From a virus: a stretch of 44,636 nt of DNA. How positions within the stretch are numbered: position 1 is the first letter of the stretch; every line of letters starts with the position of its first letter. Under the pieces are notes generated by a model. That model was not told where the DNA came from. It saw nothing but the letters and a program-made list of their open reading frames with translations, and did no database searches. The translations under genes and the position numbers were made by a program. The stretch is taken from positions 1 to 44,636 of the IMG/VR virus record IMGVR_UViG_3300032315_001445. The stretch is one strand, 5' to 3'. This document shows positions 1,024 through 33,997 of the stretch, piece by piece.

Positions 1024-1604
1024 CAGTTGTAAATGCCATATAAAGGCAATGACTTCCTATAAATAAACATAGGTTACAACTGTAGTGCAGAGGAGATAAT
1101 TTATTTATGAATTCTCTATATCTTGTAAAACGGGTGAGATTAATATAGTTCCACAAGCATACTATAATTCATAAAAACGGCTAAACATTGATCCATTGTA
1201 AATATGTCGTAGTTGGATAGTGGCTTCCGCTACAAAATGAAGTTATGACATTTATTTACACAAAGATACTAATCCTGAATTGACAAGATGAAACAATGGC
1301 ACAAAACATTTTATATGTTGGTGTCAGCTATTCGGAGTAATCCTAGATGTGCTGCTACCTTGAGAAAGTAGTGAATAAGTGAGTAGACAGAACCCCAATG
1401 CTATCTGTCCAGCACAAATGAGTTCTCAGCAAGTAGTTAAAGATAATAATATGCTAGAGTCTGTCTTGGAGCAAGACTAGCTACTTTATGTATTACAGAT
1501 TAACCAAGTGACGAGTAATTGCTTTACCTACGTGACCCTACTCTTATGAAACTTATCATCCAGAAATGGACTTTCAGTTAGTAATAAGACAAGAGGGTGC
1601 TAAA
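1024..1604 (+). ncRNA. Candidate large structured RNA, copy 1
   Basis: A gene-free stretch of about 580 bases with nested helices. CAGTTGTAA 1024-1032 pairs with TTACAACTG 1074-1082 and encloses two hairpins (1034-1048 and 1056-1073). TATGAATT 1106-1113 pairs with AATTCATA 1166-1173. TGTGCTG 1348-1354 pairs with CAGCACA 1410-1416 and encloses CTAC/GTAG (1355-1371) and GACAGA/TCTGTC (1386-1409). ACCCT 1535-1539 plus TCTTAT 1542-1547 pair with ATAAGA 1584-1589 plus AGGGT 1594-1598. A second copy at 7985-8295 keeps the loops and junctions (CTTGRGAAA, GTTCYCAGCAARTAG, GTGACCCTACTYTTAT, GGGTGCTAAA) while helix sequences change with pairing preserved. It ends 28 bases before a start codon, so it could be a cis leader or a separate RNA. 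The class is unknown; GOLLD and ROOL are precedents for large phage RNAs. Confidence 0.72.
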
Positions 1605-2721: not shown

Positions 2722-3264
2722 ATGGAAAACCAAGTAAAAGCAGTAATCCTGTTAAAAACAGATGAGTCCGATATTAAAGAGGACAAAAATGGAAAAATCT
2801 ACAAAACTATTGAACTAACTAAACATGGTTCACAAAGTGGATTAGAAGTAATTGATGGTATCGAGGTTATGGTTGAAGCCAAAGCTATTGTTACCAAAAC
2901 TAATGTGTATGAGGAAAGTTATTTAGATGGTAAAACTGAGTTAGGATTCAATGCTCCTATTTATGATAGAAGCAATCCAAAAGCTGGGGGGGCATTTTAT
3001 GGAGATATAGTTACTAAAACTGTAGAACCATACGATATCCCTCTTCGTGATGAAAATGGGGAGTTAACTGGGGAAGTTCGTACTGTAACTAGTTACACAA
3101 CTGTGGTATTAGGAGTTAAAACTACTGATACAGACAGATTTGAAGCAGCTGTAAATCGTGCGTTTGCTAATCGTCAGGTTCAAGTAGAAGCTGGTGTTGA
3201 AGCAGGAGCTCCTAGTGCAGTAGCTAATCCAGTAGCTTCTCCTAACGTACCTCTACAGGTATAA
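2722..3264 (+). CDS. Hypothetical protein with Ala/Pro/Val tail, apparently its own transcription unit
   Basis: A 180-residue protein. Residues 1-145 are beta-rich and contain GGAFYGDIVTKTVEPYDIPL. The last 35 residues are a low-complexity Ala/Pro/Val tail (AGAPSAVANPVASP). An OB-fold or SSB-like role is possible but not shown by any motif. Its leader contains AACCTTTTAAATTAAA, and a long inverted repeat follows, so it may be transcribed alone. Codons are less A/T-biased than in its neighbours (more GCT, CGT and CCT), which would fit a highly made protein. Confidence 0.6.
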   Translation: MENQVKAVILLKTDESDIKEDKNGKIYKTIELTKHGSQSGLEVIDGIEVMVEAKAIVTKTNVYEESYLDGKTELGFNAPIYDRSNPKAGGAFYGDIVTKTVEPYDIPLRDENGELTGEVRTVTSYTTVVLGVKTTDTDRFEAAVNRAFANRQVQVEAGVEAGAPSAVANPVASPNVPLQV

Positions 3265-3277
3265 TTTTTTAGTATAG

Positions 3278-3375
3278 TATAAAGCAAGGTGTTAGTTCAT
3301 AAATTAAATTGTTTAGTTAATGACTCATCTAAATAGTTTAGTTTATTTTTGGGGTTCTAACTACCTTGCTTTATA
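3278..3375. terminator. Long inverted repeat after the 2722 gene
   Basis: AAAGCAAGGTGTTAG at 3281-3295 pairs with CTAAC 3357-3361 and ACCTTGCTTT 3363-3372, with one extra base, and TAT/ATA extends the stem. The long loop (about 60 bases) is itself A/T-rich. It fills most of the gap between two genes and could end the upstream transcript or protect its 3' end. No clear U-tract follows, so classical intrinsic termination is not certain. Confidence 0.5.
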
Positions 3376-3396
3376 TTATATATATTAATTACTACT

Positions 3397-4062
3397 ATGA
3401 AAATACATTGTATTAGTGATACTCATAGGTTTCATAAAGACCTAAAATTTGCAGATGATATAGATACGATTATTCATGCTGGTGATTTTAGTCATAGCAA
3501 AAGCCCTATATTTAATCATCCAGAAGCATTAGAATTTTTAGATTGGTTTAATAGTGTATCAGTAAAATATAAAATATTAGTAGCCGGTAATCATGATATA
3601 TCTATGGAAAATAAGTCTATAGATATTAAGAAATTTGAATCCATTATATATTTAGAACATACTTCAGTTAATATTGAAGGTATTAATATATTTGGTAGCC
3701 CTTATACACCAGTTTTTCGTAATTGGGCATTTAATGTTAACAAAGATAGATTAGATAATTATTGGAAAGAAATACCTGATAATACAGATATTTTGATTAC
3801 CCATGGGCCCCCAAAAAGTATTTTGGATTTAGCCTATAAAGAAGATAATAGATTAGAATTTTGTGGCTGTAGAGCTCTATATAATCATGTTATGCGTGTT
3901 AAACCTAAATTACATATATTTGGGCATATTCATGATAATAATGATTGTAATAATCAAGGTTTATTCTTTAGAAATGATACTACTTTTATTAATGCATCTT
4001 GTGTTACTGATGGTAAGTTTTCTTTTGGATTAACCAGTAATGGTATTGTAACTTTATTTTAA
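3397..4062 (+). CDS. Calcineurin-like metallophosphoesterase
   Basis: A 221-residue enzyme with the complete metallophosphoesterase motif set: SDTH (residues 7-10), GD (29-30), GNHD (64-67), THGPP (135-139) and GHIH (176-179). These residues bind two metal ions and hydrolyse phosphoester bonds. The short length and GHIH spacing resemble the MPPED (239FB-like) branch. The substrate cannot be told from sequence; phage relatives may act on nucleotides, RNA ends or protein phosphates. It leads the array of small overlapping genes that follows. Confidence 0.88.
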   Translation: MKIHCISDTHRFHKDLKFADDIDTIIHAGDFSHSKSPIFNHPEALEFLDWFNSVSVKYKILVAGNHDISMENKSIDIKKFESIIYLEHTSVNIEGINIFGSPYTPVFRNWAFNVNKDRLDNYWKEIPDNTDILITHGPPKSILDLAYKEDNRLEFCGCRALYNHVMRVKPKLHIFGHIHDNNDCNNQGLFFRNDTTFINASCVTDGKFSFGLTSNGIVTLF

Positions 4063-4092
4063 CCTTTTTAATATGTTTAAAATCCCTGGATT

Positions 4093-4311
4093 ATGAATGA
4101 AATACCAACAGCAGAAGAATTTATAGACCAACATTTTGAAGAAGGATGGCAAACATCTGATTTTATGATTGAGTTTACTAAATTGCATGTTCAAGCTGCT
4201 ATTAAAACTTGTATAGAAGAAGCTCCATCTGGTTCATCCACCGATACAGTATCTTATGAAGATGTTGTATATGCTCTGAAAGATTGTTATCCATTAACTA
4301 ATATTAAATAA
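4093..4311 (+). CDS. Small phage protein, IPTAEEF family
   Basis: A 72-residue protein starting with IPTAEEFIDQH, then MIEFTKLHVQAAIK, and ending YPLTNIK. This pattern is a widespread uncharacterised family in Bacteroidota phages, to my recollection. It is a paralogue of the next gene, which has the same three blocks. The last base of its TAA is the first base of the next ATG, so the two are translationally coupled. Confidence 0.7.
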   Translation: MNEIPTAEEFIDQHFEEGWQTSDFMIEFTKLHVQAAIKTCIEEAPSGSSTDTVSYEDVVYALKDCYPLTNIK

Positions 4312-4580
4312 TGGCACATATACCAGCAGCTGAGGAATTTTTATCTAATCATAAAAATCATCTCATAGAACACGAAGAATATATTCCTAGGGTAATGGTA
4401 GAATTTGCAAAGCTTCATGTTGAAAAGGCATTAAAAGAAGCAAGTGAAAAAACTGAGATTCTACTATGGCAAAACAATGCTGATATAGATATAGTAGCCA
4501 ATAGAGCTAAATATATTGTTGAAGACCTTGAGATTGGTAAAATAATAAAGAATTCTTATTCATTAGATAGTATTAAGTAG
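4311..4580 (+). CDS. Small phage protein, IPAAEEF family (paralogue of 4093)
   Basis: An 89-residue paralogue of the upstream gene, sharing IPAAEEFL, MVEFAKLHVEKALKEA and the C-terminal YSLDSIK. It is longer in the middle and mainly helical. It ends in TAG, one of the few TAG stops in the window. The following ATG lies one base later. The tandem pair suggests local duplication. Function is unknown. Confidence 0.7.
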   Translation: MAHIPAAEEFLSNHKNHLIEHEEYIPRVMVEFAKLHVEKALKEASEKTEILLWQNNADIDIVANRAKYIVEDLEIGKIIKNSYSLDSIK

Positions 4581-4947: not shown

Positions 4948-5393
4948 GCAATATAAAAACAACATACGTAACCTTTGAACAAGCTAAATGGCTCAAAAAG
5001 AAAGGATTTGATGAAATAACTTATAGTTCATACATAACATTTGATGATTGGAAAACTCATAATATAGATTATTGTATAAACTTACCATTAACACAATTTT
5101 TAAATAGAGGAGATGATAACGTATTAGCAAGACCTGAACAATGGAAAGCAATTGAATGGTTAAGGGTTAATCATGGTATTTGGATTAGTGTTAATTACAT
5201 AGGTAAGGAAAGTTATTATGGAGAAAAAAACAATAAATGTATTTTTGACATAAGTAAGATTCCTACAGGTAAATCAATTTTTAATTCTTGGGAAAATGTT
5301 GATAAAGATATAAAACCAAAACCCTTATATTATTCCGCACCTCAAGAAGCCTACTCAGCAGCATTTGATTACATTTTAAAAGAATTAATATGA
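4944..5393 (+). CDS. Hypothetical phage protein (WLRVNHGIWI family)
   Basis: A 149-residue protein with three recognisable blocks: TFEQAKWLKKKGF near the N-terminus, PEQWKAIEWLRVNHGIWI in the middle, and SAPQEAYSAAFDYIL at the C-terminus. I recognise this arrangement from uncharacterised proteins of Bacteroidota phages. It overlaps both neighbours by four bases (ATGA), which indicates coupled translation. Function is unknown. Confidence 0.7.
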   Translation: MSNIKTTYVTFEQAKWLKKKGFDEITYSSYITFDDWKTHNIDYCINLPLTQFLNRGDDNVLARPEQWKAIEWLRVNHGIWISVNYIGKESYYGEKNNKCIFDISKIPTGKSIFNSWENVDKDIKPKPLYYSAPQEAYSAAFDYILKELI

Positions 5394-7984: not shown

Positions 7985-8295
7985 AATACATAAGCTGTGT
8001 GTAAGGTTATAGAAGTCCTTTGAATTATAAAACGTCCAGAGTTTGATATTAGCTTAATAGAAGACTCTATAAACGAGCTTTTAAGGTAATGATAAAGCAA
8101 ACTATAATTCATAAAATACTGTCAGTAATGGCAGACTTGCATTCCACTTGGGAAAATGGAGGCTTTGTTATAGAAAGCTAATGAGATGCAAGAACTAGTT
8201 CCCAGCAAATAGATATAATCGTCGTAACTTATATCTATGTGACCCTACTTTTATCATTGGGCTAATAACCTGAGATTGGTAAAAAGGGTGCTAAA
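7985..8295 (+). ncRNA. Candidate large structured RNA, copy 2
   Basis: This shorter homologue of the RNA at 1024-1604 shows the same order of elements. TGAATTATA 8021-8029 pairs with TATAATTCA 8103-8111, followed by AAAA as in copy 1. CTTGCAT 8136-8142 pairs with ATGCAAG 8186-8192 and encloses TCCA/TGGA (8143-8160, loop CTTGGGAAAA) and GGCTTT/AAAGCT (8161-8179). Then come GTTCCCAGCAAATAG 8198-8212, ATAGATATAA 8209-8218 with TTATATCTAT 8229-8238, and ACCCT 8242-8246 plus TTTTATCA 8249-8256 with TGGTAAAA 8277-8284 plus AGGGT 8285-8289. Helices differ in sequence from copy 1 but still pair. It ends 21 bases before the next start codon. Confidence 0.75.
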
Positions 8296-28790: not shown

Positions 28791-29673
28791 AACTAAAGTA
28801 GTTACAAAAAATTATTTATTAATTAAAAGTAGGCACCCCAGTCATAATGTTATTAGAGGTAAAATACTAGTTCCTAAAGGTTATAAAGCTATTTTTAGGT
28901 TAGGTAGTACTACTCCTATAAATGTTAATTTAAAAGGCAAACAACTAATAGAAATAAATTCTACAGATTCTATTAGAAATAGTGCTAGTAAATTGTTAAT
29001 GAAACAATGCTTTACTAGAGCTGGTGTTAAAACAGCTGATTGGTTTACTTATTATGGTAGTCCTAACGGAGGACAATTATTTTTAATAAATGGGCAACCT
29101 ACTAAAGATAATATGGGTACTCAAATTAAAGATTTACCATTTCCTATTGTAGCTAAATCACACCATGGTTCTCGTAACGAAGGTAATACTAAATTAAATA
29201 GTTTAGAACAGTTTGAAGCTTGGAAAAAAGGTAAGAATTTAAATAATTATATTTTTGAAAAATTCTATAATTATAATAAAGAGTATCGTTTGCATGTAAC
29301 TAGAGATGGCTGCTTTTACGCAATTCGCAAAATGCTAAAATCTGATACTCCTGAAAATAGTAGATGGTTTAGAAATGACTCAAATTGTGTATGGGTATTA
29401 GAAACCAATCCTCAATTTAATAGACCTAGTAATTGGGATGATGTAGTAGCTGAGTGTGTTAAAGCACTAATTTCTGTTGGATTAGATGTAGGTGCTATAG
29501 ATTTGAGAATACAATCTTCTGAAAAAGATAAAAAGAAAAAAGATAAAGCACCTAACTTTATCATTTTAGAAACTAATTCAGCCCCTTCTTTTGGTGAAAT
29601 TACAGCAGAAAAGTATACTACTGAATTGGAAAATATCATTAACAATAAAATAAAAATACTATGTGTGGAATAA
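28774..29673 (+). CDS. ATP-grasp amide ligase
   Basis: A 299-residue ATP-grasp enzyme. It shows FPIVAKSHHGSRNEG (about residues 124-138; Lys plus the Gly-rich loop that holds ATP phosphates), YIFEKFYNYNKEYRLHV (about 161-177) and FIILETNSAPSFG (about 261-273; the E-x-N Mg site). It is of the RimK/YheC-D kind, which activates a carboxylate as acyl-phosphate and joins an amine, often an amino acid. It overlaps both neighbours, which encode a cyclotransferase and an amidotransferase. This points to stepwise peptide-like synthesis. The substrate is unknown. Confidence 0.85.
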   Translation: MATGTKTKVVTKNYLLIKSRHPSHNVIRGKILVPKGYKAIFRLGSTTPINVNLKGKQLIEINSTDSIRNSASKLLMKQCFTRAGVKTADWFTYYGSPNGGQLFLINGQPTKDNMGTQIKDLPFPIVAKSHHGSRNEGNTKLNSLEQFEAWKKGKNLNNYIFEKFYNYNKEYRLHVTRDGCFYAIRKMLKSDTPENSRWFRNDSNCVWVLETNPQFNRPSNWDDVVAECVKALISVGLDVGAIDLRIQSSEKDKKKKDKAPNFIILETNSAPSFGEITAEKYTTELENIINNKIKILCVE

Positions 29674-32144
29674 CTGGATATGTAGGGCCAACCTATATTA
29701 ATAAAAATGTATTAGATTTCTTTATGGTATCTAATTTAGTTAGAGGAAAAGATTCAGCTGGATATTTTAATGGAAAAAGCATATTTAAAGCTGTTGGCGC
29801 TGTCGATGAAAACTTACTAGTTAAGTTTCCTATAACTAAAACTAAAGTGTTTATAGGCCATTGCAGAGCAGCTACAGCAGGCTATCATGTAACTCTTAAT
29901 AATGCTCACCCTTTTAGCTTTAAATCATTTGTATTAGTACACAATGGTACTATTACGAATATAGAAGCAATGAAAAAAGAAGTGCCATTTCAATATCAAT
30001 TAGAAGATGGAACATGGGATACTTGTACAGTAGACTCAAAATATTTAGCTTATAGACTACATAAAGATTTTAATACAGCCAATAAATTTAAAGTATTAGA
30101 AGAGTATACAGGAGCAGCAGCTATTATATTTTCTTTTCTAGATGAATCTGGCGCATTACGGTACGCAGTTTATCATGATAAAGAAAGACCTATGTTTATA
30201 GGGGAATTAAATAATGGAGTAGTATTCCATTCTTTAGAGTATTCATTAAATATAGCTGGCGCTACTAATATAAAAGAAGTTCCTGTAGAAACAGTATTTA
30301 TCTATGATAATACTGGTAACTTAGTATCTGAAACAAAAATAGATCGATTAAAGAAGAAGCCAACTACCTATGTTACCTACACAGATTCTACATGGAGAAG
30401 TGGACATTCTAATATTATTGATTATACCAAAGATGAAACAGAAACAGATAAAATAGCTAATAAAGGTTTGAAGCTATTTAATGATCTTACTAAACCCAAA
30501 GCTGATATTAGTACAAATATAGTTAGTTTACTTAATAATAACCCAACTATGGCTGACCAAATGCTAAAAAGATTAGAAACTAGAGATAAATTAGTAATTC
30601 CTATTTTAGGAATAACAAACACTAATGAAAAGATAAAAACCTTATATACTACAACTAAATCTGTTGGGGCATCTTACAAAGAAAAATATGGGACTATAAG
30701 AGTTGAAAACGCTAAAGTTAATATAGATTTTATTTTAAATAACATGTATTTTGTATTTAATACTAATGGTATAACTGATGCAAATATTAAGGACTATATA
30801 GATTCTGATTATTACAAAAAAGCTAGTGATGTTATAGAAATAAACTTAGAACAGAAATTTAAGTATTATGAAGCAAAAGACTGTAAATTATTACCTTTAA
30901 CTAAAAATATATTATATACTCGTTCTAAAAAGGATACATATAAAATAATTAAAGGGGGTAATAATACACTTAAACTTTATATATATATTGATGATATATC
31001 TTCTTATGTTAATATAGATAAACTGCATTTAATTTATTATTTAAGTGACGAGTCAGCAGCTGCTGGTATTAATGTTCTTAATAGTATTGTTACTGCTAAT
31101 TTAAATCCTGTTAAAACAACTGTTTCTAAAACAAAGTTAGAAGCTTTTACAGTTAAACAAACAGTATATAAAACTAATGATCGTATAATATTGACTCCTA
31201 GTATTGTAAAAGGTATTATAGTTCAATTATTATGTGAAAATACTAAAGAATTATTATGTAATCCTGAAACTAAAGTATTAAATTATTCTAGTGTTGCGAT
31301 GGCAGAAATACGTGAGTCTAAAAAAGACTTCTCAGTATTAAAATCGATAATCAATACATATATAAACAGCTTTGTTGATAGTAGCAATACTTTTACCCAT
31401 GATAAACTTACTGGTAGAAAGAAAAATTTATGTTTAACAGGTATTCTTAGTAATATACGTACTCTTGATTCTCCTTTTGATTTTAATTTAAAAGGTGATA
31501 TAGCAGTAGACATTACTATTGCTTTACCAGTAGCATCTACTAATAAATTTGTAGAATCACTTTCATACCATACGCTTAGTGTAAATACTAAATTCTTTGA
31601 TGGTACACTTATTACTGTAATGGATTTAGAATCTTATTCTAAGTCTGCAAAAGAGTTATTATTTCATACTTGGATAACTGATTCAGCTTTTAGAATGTAT
31701 TTAGTAGATATAATGGAGCTTAAATATAATGAGCCTATTTCAGAGTTTGAAAATCAAATACAACTTGTAGCTGGGCTTACTCTTATGCAACGTATTACTA
31801 CATCTTTAGTAAAGATAACGCATAGTCAAAATAATCCTATTATGAGTAAGTTTAAAGATGATGAGTTTGATTTGATATCTGATGAAGATTTATTAGAAGG
31901 AAATAAAGCTAAAGACGTTACTGAAAGTGTATTAGATAATTTCTCTACTCAAATTTCTCATCCAAGCTTAATAGGAATAACTGAAAACGTAAGTAATATC
32001 AGAAGAATAATAGATGAAGCTGAAATTAAAGATGGCATTACTTGGGAAACAATGGAAGCTATAGATGACAATTTAAAAGAAATCGAAGAATATACTAATG
32101 AATTGGATGGAGCAATACTAGAAATAATGGAGTTAAATCACTAA
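29661..32144 (+). CDS. Class II glutamine amidotransferase fused to a long novel C-terminal region
   Basis: An 827-residue protein. The N-terminal 240 residues are an Ntn-type glutaminase: MCGITGYVG with nucleophile Cys2, RGKDSAG, GHCRAATAG (about residues 74-82), NAHPF and LVHNGTI. It resembles the GlmS/asparagine synthetase glutaminase half and should release ammonia from glutamine. The remaining 580 or so residues match neither the SIS nor the synthetase domain. They are mixed alpha/beta and end in an acidic helical segment. The start is fixed by the need for Cys2. It lies between the ATP-grasp and amidoligase genes. Confidence 0.85.
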   Translation: MCGITGYVGPTYINKNVLDFFMVSNLVRGKDSAGYFNGKSIFKAVGAVDENLLVKFPITKTKVFIGHCRAATAGYHVTLNNAHPFSFKSFVLVHNGTITNIEAMKKEVPFQYQLEDGTWDTCTVDSKYLAYRLHKDFNTANKFKVLEEYTGAAAIIFSFLDESGALRYAVYHDKERPMFIGELNNGVVFHSLEYSLNIAGATNIKEVPVETVFIYDNTGNLVSETKIDRLKKKPTTYVTYTDSTWRSGHSNIIDYTKDETETDKIANKGLKLFNDLTKPKADISTNIVSLLNNNPTMADQMLKRLETRDKLVIPILGITNTNEKIKTLYTTTKSVGASYKEKYGTIRVENAKVNIDFILNNMYFVFNTNGITDANIKDYIDSDYYKKASDVIEINLEQKFKYYEAKDCKLLPLTKNILYTRSKKDTYKIIKGGNNTLKLYIYIDDISSYVNIDKLHLIYYLSDESAAAGINVLNSIVTANLNPVKTTVSKTKLEAFTVKQTVYKTNDRIILTPSIVKGIIVQLLCENTKELLCNPETKVLNYSSVAMAEIRESKKDFSVLKSIINTYINSFVDSSNTFTHDKLTGRKKNLCLTGILSNIRTLDSPFDFNLKGDIAVDITIALPVASTNKFVESLSYHTLSVNTKFFDGTLITVMDLESYSKSAKELLFHTWITDSAFRMYLVDIMELKYNEPISEFENQIQLVAGLTLMQRITTSLVKITHSQNNPIMSKFKDDEFDLISDEDLLEGNKAKDVTESVLDNFSTQISHPSLIGITENVSNIRRIIDEAEIKDGITWETMEAIDDNLKEIEEYTNELDGAILEIMELNH

Positions 32145-32149
32145 TAAAA

Positions 32150-33997
32150 ATGTTTGCAAAAGTCATCGAGTCTAAGTATCCAGCTAGACTTGGTAATATA
32201 TATAGGGTAGTTCTAGTTAATGAGCTACCCTATTATATAACTAAAAAAGGATTAAAAGTTAAGTTTATACCAAAATACGAATTTTTAGAATTTATACACA
32301 TAAAAAGAAATATAAGTAACATAGAGATATGCGAAATCATACACACCAATAATATGAGTGAAATACAAAAAGACATTGTTTTAGGTAATACTGTTACACT
32401 AAGAAGTGGCAAATCTACATCTATTGACAATACCATTAAAATAGGTGAATACTATTATGAAAAAGAAAAAGATGTTGTACTTATAGAAGATAAATGGGTA
32501 TTAAAAAATAACAATATAGTAAAATGCGAAATTAGTGGAGAATATGATTATATTGTAAATATGGATTATGGAATTATAGGTAAATCTGGTGAACATTTAG
32601 TTAAAGGCTTTTTTAAAAAAATAAAAGGTAACCCTAATTTAGCACCTTTAATTACAACTTTAAAATGTAAAGATTCTAAATTAGTAGCTAAAGCTGTAAA
32701 AGAAGCTAAAGAACCTATAGGTATAGATATTCACGGAAAAAGCATATATTCTGAAGCTAAAGTATTAATACCTAAATTAAACATAAGAGATAATTTAGAT
32801 GTAACTCCAGATGGAGAGCTAAAACAAATAGACCATACTAAAATATCTATTAATTTAGATAGTGATATATTAGGTAGTATTAATGCTAAAGAGGCTTTTT
32901 CTCATGGTGTATTTTATACTCCAGAAGCAAAAGGTGTTATAGTTAAAATGCCAAGACCTACATATATATCTTTGGATTCTAAAAAGAAAAGAACTGGTAA
33001 TATAGAAATAGATATAGAAAATGGTACTGATTCTAAAACATTTAATTTATTAAGTGATATGCAATATACATTTGGAGTTGAAATTGAAACTTCTAGTGGT
33101 ATTATACCTGCGTATGTTCTAAAAACTTTAAATGTAGAAAGTATGAGAGATGGGTCTATTGATTCTGGTGAGTATGTTACAGGAGTTTTAAAAGGTGATG
33201 CTGGTTTAGTTCAACTAAATAAATTAATGTATGAAATATCTAAAAGATGTAGTGTTAATAGAAAATGCGGTATTCACGTTCATATTGGTAGTGCTGATTT
33301 TGATATAGCATTTATAGTTGCAGCTTATAAATTAGGTTTAGCTATACAAAATGATTTAAAATTATTTTTAGCTCCTAGTAGATTTAATAATAAGTATTGT
33401 AAAAACTTAAAAAATCTAGAATTTACAAATACTCCTACTCTTATAAATGATTTTAATAAAATAGTAGAGTATTTAGCACATGGTAAAAATGTTAGATTTA
33501 TTACTCCAGCAGATAAATACCCTATTGAGCAAAGATGGCCTCATGGAGTTGGATGGGGTGTAGAACCTAGATATGTATGGTTAAATCTTATTCCTACAGT
33601 ATTTGTTAGAGAAGATAGAAATCATACTCCAAACAGCGAGATAGTAAAAGATAAAAAATTAACTCATACTATAGAATTTAGAAATCACCATATTACTAGA
33701 GATTTTAATAGTGTGTATACATGGGTACTATTTTGTATGAGTTTTGTTAGATTCATAGAAGAAAATAAAAATGAAATAGCAACAACAGATATTGGAAAAT
33801 ATAGTATAAGTGACATATTAAATTCTATTTCTAATGTAAGTTTAAGAAGAAAAATAATTAATGATTTTGAAGAAAGAAAAGATAAATTTAAAATAAAAGA
33901 GTTACTTAAAAAAGTTAGTGAGGAAAAATTAGCTAGTGGAGAATATGATGTATCTATTTATGAAGAAGAAACAAAAACAAATAATATATTTAAATAA
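32150..33997 (+). CDS. Putative amidoligase with long N-terminal extension
   Basis: A 615-residue protein. The C-terminal half (about residue 304 onward) is an amidoligase of the glutamine synthetase-like fold: YTFGVEIETSSG, MRDGSIDSG, CGIHVHIG (about residues 370-377) and HTIEFRNHHI (about 504-513), the metal and ATP-binding blocks. The first 300 residues are an unrecognised, beta-rich region. It should form an amide bond using ATP. Flanked on both sides by class II amidotransferases, it is the core of the module. It is a second, distinct member of the superfamily besides the ligase at 16598/18162. Confidence 0.85.
   Translation: MFAKVIESKYPARLGNIYRVVLVNELPYYITKKGLKVKFIPKYEFLEFIHIKRNISNIEICEIIHTNNMSEIQKDIVLGNTVTLRSGKSTSIDNTIKIGEYYYEKEKDVVLIEDKWVLKNNNIVKCEISGEYDYIVNMDYGIIGKSGEHLVKGFFKKIKGNPNLAPLITTLKCKDSKLVAKAVKEAKEPIGIDIHGKSIYSEAKVLIPKLNIRDNLDVTPDGELKQIDHTKISINLDSDILGSINAKEAFSHGVFYTPEAKGVIVKMPRPTYISLDSKKKRTGNIEIDIENGTDSKTFNLLSDMQYTFGVEIETSSGIIPAYVLKTLNVESMRDGSIDSGEYVTGVLKGDAGLVQLNKLMYEISKRCSVNRKCGIHVHIGSADFDIAFIVAAYKLGLAIQNDLKLFLAPSRFNNKYCKNLKNLEFTNTPTLINDFNKIVEYLAHGKNVRFITPADKYPIEQRWPHGVGWGVEPRYVWLNLIPTVFVREDRNHTPNSEIVKDKKLTHTIEFRNHHITRDFNSVYTWVLFCMSFVRFIEENKNEIATTDIGKYSISDILNSISNVSLRRKIINDFEERKDKFKIKELLKKVSEEKLASGEYDVSIYEEETKTNNIFK

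Follow-up and report, generated by a model that had tools for sequence, protein, structure and literature searches.

Introduction

The window analysed here is a whole virus record of 44,636 bases, and two of its stretches raise a question. Both are on the plus strand, between open reading frames (ORFs), and both hold the same motifs together with helices that differ in sequence and still pair. The initial annotation took them for a duplicated RNA under selection for its fold, could match it to no class and named GOLLD and ROOL as possible relatives. What kind of RNA is this, and what might it do? New RNA classes this large and complex are few, and the role of the phage GOLLD and ROOL RNAs is still an open question. 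We conclude that the element is very probably an RNA gene of its own class that acts in trans. The fuller reading, to which we give an even chance, is a stand-alone phage RNA gene with a pseudoknotted fixed core and interchangeable arms, processed from a tRNA precursor and scaffold-like in its action.

Results

The window holds one structured RNA in two copies of approximately 426 nt (copy 1, 1179–1604, from H1 to GGGTGCTAAA) and 293 nt (copy 2, 8003–8295). Reading of the sequence and a motif search located the two gene-free stretches and their common motifs where they had been reported, and GTGACCCTACTYTTAT was found with zero mismatches only at 1532 and 8239. All four helix pairs originally named could be identified: TGTGCTG/CAGCACA in copy 1 versus CTTGCAT/ATGCAAG in copy 2, CTAC/GTAG versus TCCA/TGGA, GACAGA/TCTGTC versus GGCTTT/AAAGCT, and TCTTAT/ATAAGA versus TTTTATCA/TGGTAAAA. 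Other details had to be revised. The loop CTTGRGAAA and the motif GTTCYCAG are shared as described, but they are not single-stranded; they are the two sides of a pseudoknot, which pairs CTTGAGAAA/GTTCTCAG in copy 1 and CTTGGGAAA/GTTCCCAG in copy 2. The proposed start of copy 1 at 1024 is too far out, and that of copy 2 at 7985 has also been moved; the 5′ ends are now placed at approximately 1179 and 8003 because hairpin H1 sits there. ACTATAATTCATAAAA, given as a common ordered motif, occupies non-equivalent sites, being the 3′ strand of H2 plus the linker in copy 2 (8101) and lying before H1 in copy 1 (1161). The folding energy is unremarkable, with z-scores of -0.23 (copy 1) and -1.71 (copy 2) in a calculation that leaves pseudoknots aside; the evidence for the fold is comparative. 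Elsewhere in the window, gene-poor stretches at 44–64 and 1073–1093 have TTACAACTG(TA)GTGCAGAGG in common; they may be what is left of another RNA, or else a regulatory repeat. The region 29661–33997 has genes resembling a glutamine amidotransferase/GFAT N-terminal domain and an amidoligase.

Motif scans yielded more than 100 distinct homologues on viral contigs of 4–373 kb. A pattern for the 3′ end, GTGACCCTAC followed after a gap by the same terminal motif as in copy 1, matched 41 viral contig stretches, most of which have one long conserved scaffold in common upstream of it. A second pattern, composed of the P2 loop and the pseudoknot strand, matched 113 stretches. An anchor script left 101 sequences once identical ones had been removed; the set contains Cellulophaga phage phi14:2 once, as L044, and also L082, which is coding. 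A covariance model of 209 positions was built from 24 sequences, a diverse and short-armed selection from 43 non-redundant candidates. Built without copy 1, the model (R1) still detects it (1337–1604, 139.1 bits, E = 8.5e-36), the 5′ domain being assigned by motif; copy 2, which was in the training alignment, is matched at 8125–8295 with 115.4 bits. The model recovers 92 of 93 sources in one set (the miss is L082) and 32 of 36 in the other (L107, L129, L135 and L138 are missed), a rate that is not an independent test because the loci had been chosen by motif. Loci identical to others (L013, L023, L026, L028, L034, L035, L037 and L040) were not scored. Three matches of the BC pattern (L082, L107 and L129) are coding-like, and these and L135 have no model match.

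A pattern for the 5′ hairpin only matched 64 stretches, 23 of them new, and a model of the 3′ domain placed that domain just downstream in 20 of the 23. Two of the three misses, L242 and L249, are cut off by the stretch end. At the third, L257 (reverse strand, near 5109–5131), an ORF that is NUMOD/HNH endonuclease-like by eye replaces the 3′ domain, which suggests a homing endonuclease inserted in that domain. The element of L261 is cut, and L254 matches without P5. A scan for variants of the pseudoknot, in which one position was set to N, gave at least 85 new loci; among the 60 of 87 rows listed, L164, L172 and L200 are members by eye. BLAST against phages with four queries returned phi14:2 as the sole match, from two of them, and BLAST against plasmids with one query returned none. 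The exact 3′ pattern, which divergent copies escape, had no true match in 84,980 prokaryote genomes (species). Its sole prokaryote match (L138, a Psychrobacter MAG) was rejected as a porin-like coding gene by eye.

Eight helices and one pseudoknot were tested, and covariation is far above that of shuffled and slid controls. The view that compensatory change reflects a selected RNA fold is strongly supported by three alignments. In A3 (24 sequences, 35 pairs), 93.5% of cells are paired versus 38–46% in slid versions, and 68 cells show double changes versus 12.8 after shuffling (reached by 0/500 shuffles). L062, L124 and other long-armed rows, which align out of register or lengthen the model, are outside A3. 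A4 (25 sequences of 53 candidates, 16 pairs) has 52 double-change cells versus 14.2 shuffled (0/500); four of its five measures were reached by 0/500 shuffles, and further pair types by 10/500. A5 comprises the 5′-motif-only set (21 rows, one of them a weak extra match of 31 bits) in an alignment fitted to the model; 96.2% of its pair cells are standard, versus 36–51% in slid versions, and 31 cells are doubly changed versus 4.5 shuffled (0/500). Judged from these alignments, the predicted fold is conserved, tertiary-type and pseudoknotted.

From 5′ to 3′, the element consists of H1, H2, a linker (AUAAAGAUA), H3, a three-way junction of P1, P2 and P3, the pseudoknot strand, P4 and P5. H1 is a hairpin with the loop UAAACAUUGA and a variable stem (AGG/CCT, GTCGT/ACGAC, CTTCG/CGAAG and others). 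In copy 1 (1179–1194, by motif) the conserved loop TAAACATTGA is carried by a stem of just 2 bp (GG/CC), and in copy 2 an H1-like hairpin was recognised by eye at 8003–8020, with the stem AAGG/CCTT and a variant loop, similar in L064. H2 pairs GUAAAU with AUUUAC around a variable insert and covaries in relatives. Copy 1 (1197–1260) forms it from TGTAAAT (1197–1203)/ATTTACA (1254–1260) and TGTC (1205–1208)/GACA (1247–1250), and copy 2 (8022–8110) from GAATTATA (8022–8029)/TATAATTC (8103–8110). H3 shows double changes at 5/5 tested pairs in A4. It ends in a GNRA tetraloop, with GGA-GTAA-TCC as the tip in copy 1 (1334–1343) and CTGTCA-GTAA-TGGCAG in copy 2 (8119–8134). The tetraloop is present in at least 85 of 98 sequences (GUAA 71, GAAA 7, GAGA 3, GUGA 3, GGAA 1). 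For 12 of the remaining 13 the script register was wrong, and inspection by eye shows a GNRA hairpin; the exception, L021, is ambiguous.

P1 surrounds P2 and P3 and has seven pairs, with double changes at all of them in A3. It spans 1348–1416 in copy 1 (1348–1354 with 1410–1416) and 8136–8192 in copy 2 (8136–8142 with 8186–8192). P2 lies at 1355–1358/1368–1371 and at 8143–8146/8157–8160; covariation of P1 and P2 is seen in relatives, and the same test supports both helices in copy 2. P3 is variable and was identified by eye, in copy 1 at 1386–1391/1404–1409 and in copy 2 at 8161–8166/8174–8179. The P2 loop, CUUGAGAAA, has its partner strand, GUUCUCAG, 3′ of P1. According to the alignment test, the resulting pseudoknot joins TTGAGAA (1360–1366) to TTCTCAG (1423–1429) in copy 1 (1360–1429) and TTGGGAA (8148–8154) to TTCCCAG (8199–8205) in copy 2 (8148–8205), an exchange also found in L053. 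Its seven pairs are intact in 102 sequences, apart from a single cell in L010 and another in L019, a constancy that is partly a selection effect because most loci were fetched by those very letters. L029 and an upstream partial copy in L016, not fetched by pseudoknot letters, by eye have GGCA/TGCC and AGCA/TGCT for AGAA/TTCT, with their outer pseudoknot pairs partly unformed. In the 5′-fetched set, the pseudoknot loop varies and the core GAGA/UCUC is mostly kept; L261 breaks at least one pair and L252 has a wobble.

The P4 arm covaries in relatives. It is formed by GTAGTTA/TACCTAC, with one mismatch, in copy 1 (1433–1531) and by ATAGATATAA/TTATATCTAT in copy 2 (8209–8238), and it is absent in eight elements inspected (L066, L109, L116, L240, L246, L250, L255 and L259), where CAGCAA or CAGC almost directly joins GACC. 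The P5 arm provides the 3′ end, GGUGCUAAA. In copy 1 (1532–1604, ending GTGCTAAA) it pairs ACCCT (1535–1539) with AGGGT (1594–1598) and CTTAT (1543–1547) with ATAAG (1584–1588); in copy 2 (8239–8295) it was included in the covariation test. P5b is paired in just 70.6% of cells in A3. The length from H1 to the end has a median of 335 in 86 elements, with quartiles of 302–376 and a range of 189–509 whose extremes rest on automatic anchors; the count leaves out 9 more elements without the H1 loop at ≤1 mismatch.

The arms H2, P3, P4 and P5 were compared in 98 elements. In this comparison, made without a random control, 48 elements belong to at least one pair in which one arm is ≥80% identical and another is unlike (<60% identity or a length difference >30%). 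For 14 of these pairs, which involve 18 elements, the flanks on both sides likewise fall below 60% identity. L085, for example, has its P3 in common with L027, its P4 with L080 and its P5 with L096. As far as the sequences tell, elements swap their peripheral arms while the core stays fixed, and the conserved core stretches flanking each arm could be the recombination sites.

Plus-strand frames from H3 to the end are open in 0 of 94 elements, and the minus frames in 2, 1 and 0. The next question is whether the RNA belongs to the gene that follows it. An ATG follows the two window copies after 29 and 22 nt, and an ORF of ≥50 aa starts within 60 nt in 24 of 89 elements, an arrangement that would suit a cis-acting leader (riboswitch, thermosensor or attenuator) of a gene starting 20–30 nt downstream. 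However, the 28 ORFs found ≤80 nt downstream, among the 89 elements with room for one, fall into 26 sequence clusters and are not the genes of one pathway, and therefore the element is an RNA gene rather than a leader. At other elements a tmRNA or tRNA comes next, and there is mostly one copy per record; we consider a leader very unlikely. One copy was found in 57 of 60 records (19/20 and 38/40; in large records among the first 60–120 candidates scored, and records may be fragments). Two are present in the window and in the record of L071, and the record of L122 has a doubtful second one (22.8 bits). By model matches, L071, L087 and L132 carry tandem elements approximately 85 nt apart, unlike the usual single copy.

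A conserved core with a pseudoknot, a GNRA loop and free arms would also be in keeping with a self-splicing intron or another mobile ribozyme, and NUMOD/HNH-like ORFs (by eye) lie beside L101 and L257. Against this, the next ORFs, with their 26 clusters, suggest that there is no common interrupted gene, and the copy is again mostly single. No Rfam intron model matches at the element, and group-II-D1D4-1 was found in 0/50 records. An intron is, in our estimation, less probable still than a leader. In a search for a conserved partner gene, which may exist, the commonest neighbour-gene cluster (the clusters are unannotated) occurs at 25 of 97 loci and at varying distance. A protein that by eye is SPFH/band-7-like is a neighbour at 11/97 loci including L090, mostly just upstream.

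Downstream of the element, tRNA-type genes exceed chance. With default ARAGORN settings, 17 of 90 elements have a tRNA or tmRNA start ≤300 nt downstream, compared with 2.6% of random positions within those loci; the upstream figure is weak (5 of 97 versus 2.8%), and most elements have no called tRNA or tmRNA within 300 nt on either side. tmRNA accounts for ten of the 17, tRNA-Met for five and tRNA-Cys for two; L111 and L127 are near-copies. A relaxed threshold gives 36 of 90 versus 12.1% downstream and 22 of 97 versus 12.0% upstream, and with it the H1 region starts ≤3 nt from the 3′ end of a called tRNA at ten loci (at L092, a permuted tmRNA). In the window, a tRNA-Met (CAT) lies on the plus strand at 2265–2339, approximately 660 nt downstream of copy 1. 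Among 50 carrier records, tmRNA is over the cut-off in 16, and five more at 32–46 bits were counted as likely. Of the resulting 21 records, 10 have its start ≤100 nt downstream on the same strand. Records with a phage-encoded tmRNA include G018, G040, G027, G019, G049, G016, G044 and G032. A tally of 34 at E ≤ 0.001 includes tRNA cross-matches, because all 14 controls also match. The tmRNA of phi14:2 (4031–4502) is just under the cut-off, with 46 of 47 bits.

GOLLD (RF02032) is present in 4 of 31 carrier records (31 of the 50), 3 of them over the cut-off. In G011 it lies approximately 1.1 kb and in G021 6.6 kb downstream of the element; in G009 it is 26 kb away, and G008 has a match of 53.6 bits, under the cut-off, approximately 1.2 kb from the element. 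In G011, a 266-kb phage, tmRNA, element, tRNA-Met, GOLLD and a tRNA array follow one another in that sequence, all on one strand. Further recurrent stretches were noted upstream of the element. One, TAGCTAAGCTGTGTAAAGC...GAAGCTA, is conserved just upstream in L017, L024, L048, L062, L097, L100, L103 and L137 and may represent a further structured RNA of that island. Another candidate RNA, around GAACRCTTGTGAGTTGCAATGATA...AACTCTCA, occurs in L006, L008, L024, L038 and L130. Unusually long tRNA-model matches (L012 5809–5895 and 6041–6170, L019 2820–2924, L016 3631–3729, L263 2420–2540) perhaps reflect inserts or long variable arms.

Is the element, then, a highly diverged GOLLD or ROOL? The setting, phage plus tRNA island, is the same, and GOLLD likewise has a conserved 3′ and a freer 5′ part (PMC12286853). 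The annotated lack of a known class holds for Rfam 15, which has no match at the element: all-Rfam scans were blank there to E 5 and at the gathering threshold for the window copies, and to E 1 for seven further loci. The GOLLD covariance model is unmatched at the element; where it does match, in L262 and L264, it does so at other sites. Some carriers (4 of 31, as above) have GOLLD as a gene of its own, and therefore the element is not a divergent GOLLD. As homology, the hedged kinship with GOLLD or ROOL finds no support, and we regard such descent as exceedingly improbable; the likeness is one of setting, that of a large structured RNA in a phage tRNA island.

The tRNA and tmRNA neighbours and the arm exchange around a constant core also fit an RNA that would guard the tRNA island or act as a decoy for it, absorbing host tRNA-cutting nucleases or other defences with the exchanged arms as bait. 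The P5 arm of L047 holds a tRNA T-arm-like hairpin. Such hairpins are not general, however, occurring in 3 of 320 distinct arms (chance about 0.5, T-arm test only), and we rate this function as improbable.

The carriers bear on two further readings. Their sole isolate is phi14:2 (Crassvirales, Steigviridae), with the 3′ domain at 3120–3360. Its minus-strand genes gp007–gp009, over or beside the RNA gene (KC821624, 3106–3431), are probably spurious. A homologue of the crAss001-type major capsid protein was found in 15 of 50 carrier records and not detected in 35, including the window and all seven records of 244–373 kb. Because some carriers have a crAss-type capsid and in others none was detected, the element probably crosses virus orders, unless the undetected capsids are merely too divergent. 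The nearest relative of the window's DNA polymerase fragment is that of the human-gut phage cr111_1 (32% identity), which we take to be crAss-like. For carriers other than phi14:2 we infer Bacteroidota as hosts. A covariance-model scan of bases 1–100000 of the 102,679 of crAss001 found no credible element; the best match there (23.1 bits, E 1.9e-4) lies inside a coding gene and was rejected.

The phi29 pRNA is a packaging RNA that sits on the portal. A similar role would agree with an RNA that is phage-borne, mostly single-copy, pseudoknotted and, by exact pattern, truly matched in no prokaryote genome. It would not agree with crAss001, which is without a credible element though its relatives carry one, or with the setting among tRNA-type genes, and the chance of it is slim. 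Y RNAs can mimic tRNAs, and crAss001 encodes a Ro60 (TROVE) protein, so that a Y-RNA-like partner of such a phage protein was considered as well. TROVE is encoded in 1 of 50 carrier records (absent from 49, where records may be fragments), and crAss001 has the protein and no credible element; the probability of this partnership is negligible. The leader, intron, pRNA-like and Y-RNA readings all rank lower than the scaffold and the defence decoy.

Discussion

Sequence comparison establishes the fold, the non-coding nature, the usual single copy, the unrelated next genes and the excess of downstream tRNA and tmRNA genes over chance. For the preferred reading, a tRNA-precursor-processed RNA gene with a scaffold-like product, we propose the following course. 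The element is somewhat more probably than otherwise cut from the same precursor as the neighbouring tRNAs and tmRNA, persisting as a stable RNA; RNase Z would act at its 5′ end and RNase P at its 3′ end. The GNRA loop and the pseudoknot would lock a compact body, which may, as a tentative step, serve as a scaffold during infection. It might do so alone, as a homo-oligomer, or with ribosomes or tRNAs, by analogy with what has been proposed for GOLLD and ROOL. The arms would be surface parts under relaxed or diversifying selection. A bolder version, which we think unlikely, is a function new to any RNA. Here a constant pseudoknotted body with plug-in arms, swapped by recombination in the conserved stretches, would form with GOLLD, tmRNA and tRNAs a phage system for rebuilding or protecting translation in the course of infection, or would itself be catalytic.

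Carriers of the element include crAss-like phages as well as far larger ones in which no crAss-type capsid gene was detected, and more than 100 sequences are available for modelling. Since the carrier isolate phi14:2 grows on the culturable Cellulophaga baltica, transcript, structure and deletion phenotype are directly testable. Some elements lie close to tmRNA, tRNA-Met and GOLLD, which suggests that the 'RNA islands' of phages are sets of functional RNAs beyond tRNAs.

Among known RNAs, tmRNA (RF00023) resembles the element as a structured RNA encoded by the same phages and is the next RNA gene ≤100 nt downstream in ten records; it has no covariance match at the element and is a separate neighbour. 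OLE RNA, which is bacterial, is likewise large and has an ornate fold (PMC12286853). Its hosts and setting differ from those of the element, at which it has no Rfam match. ROOL (RF03087) is a large phage or prophage RNA of tRNA islands with pseudoknots (PMC12286853), but its model has 574 positions; it has no match at the element and was found in 0/50 records, in a search whose positive control was silent too. GOLLD, too, is a large structured RNA that phages encode close to tRNA islands, and its 3′ part is conserved (PMC12286853), but it has other helices and exists alongside the element as a gene of its own in one and the same phage. GOLLD and ROOL form RNA cages and lie near tRNA islands, GOLLD as an RNA-only oligomer in a 14-mer cage (PMC12286853). 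Of the GOLLD traits, the element is phage-borne and lies near tRNA islands, with such neighbours not at every locus. A literature search of incomplete coverage, including PMC12286853 and PMC2864571, gave no recognisable description of the element. With its complex covarying fold, its non-coding sequence and its place in phage genomes, it belongs to the large structured phage RNAs, and we rate it as a new class within this known kind.
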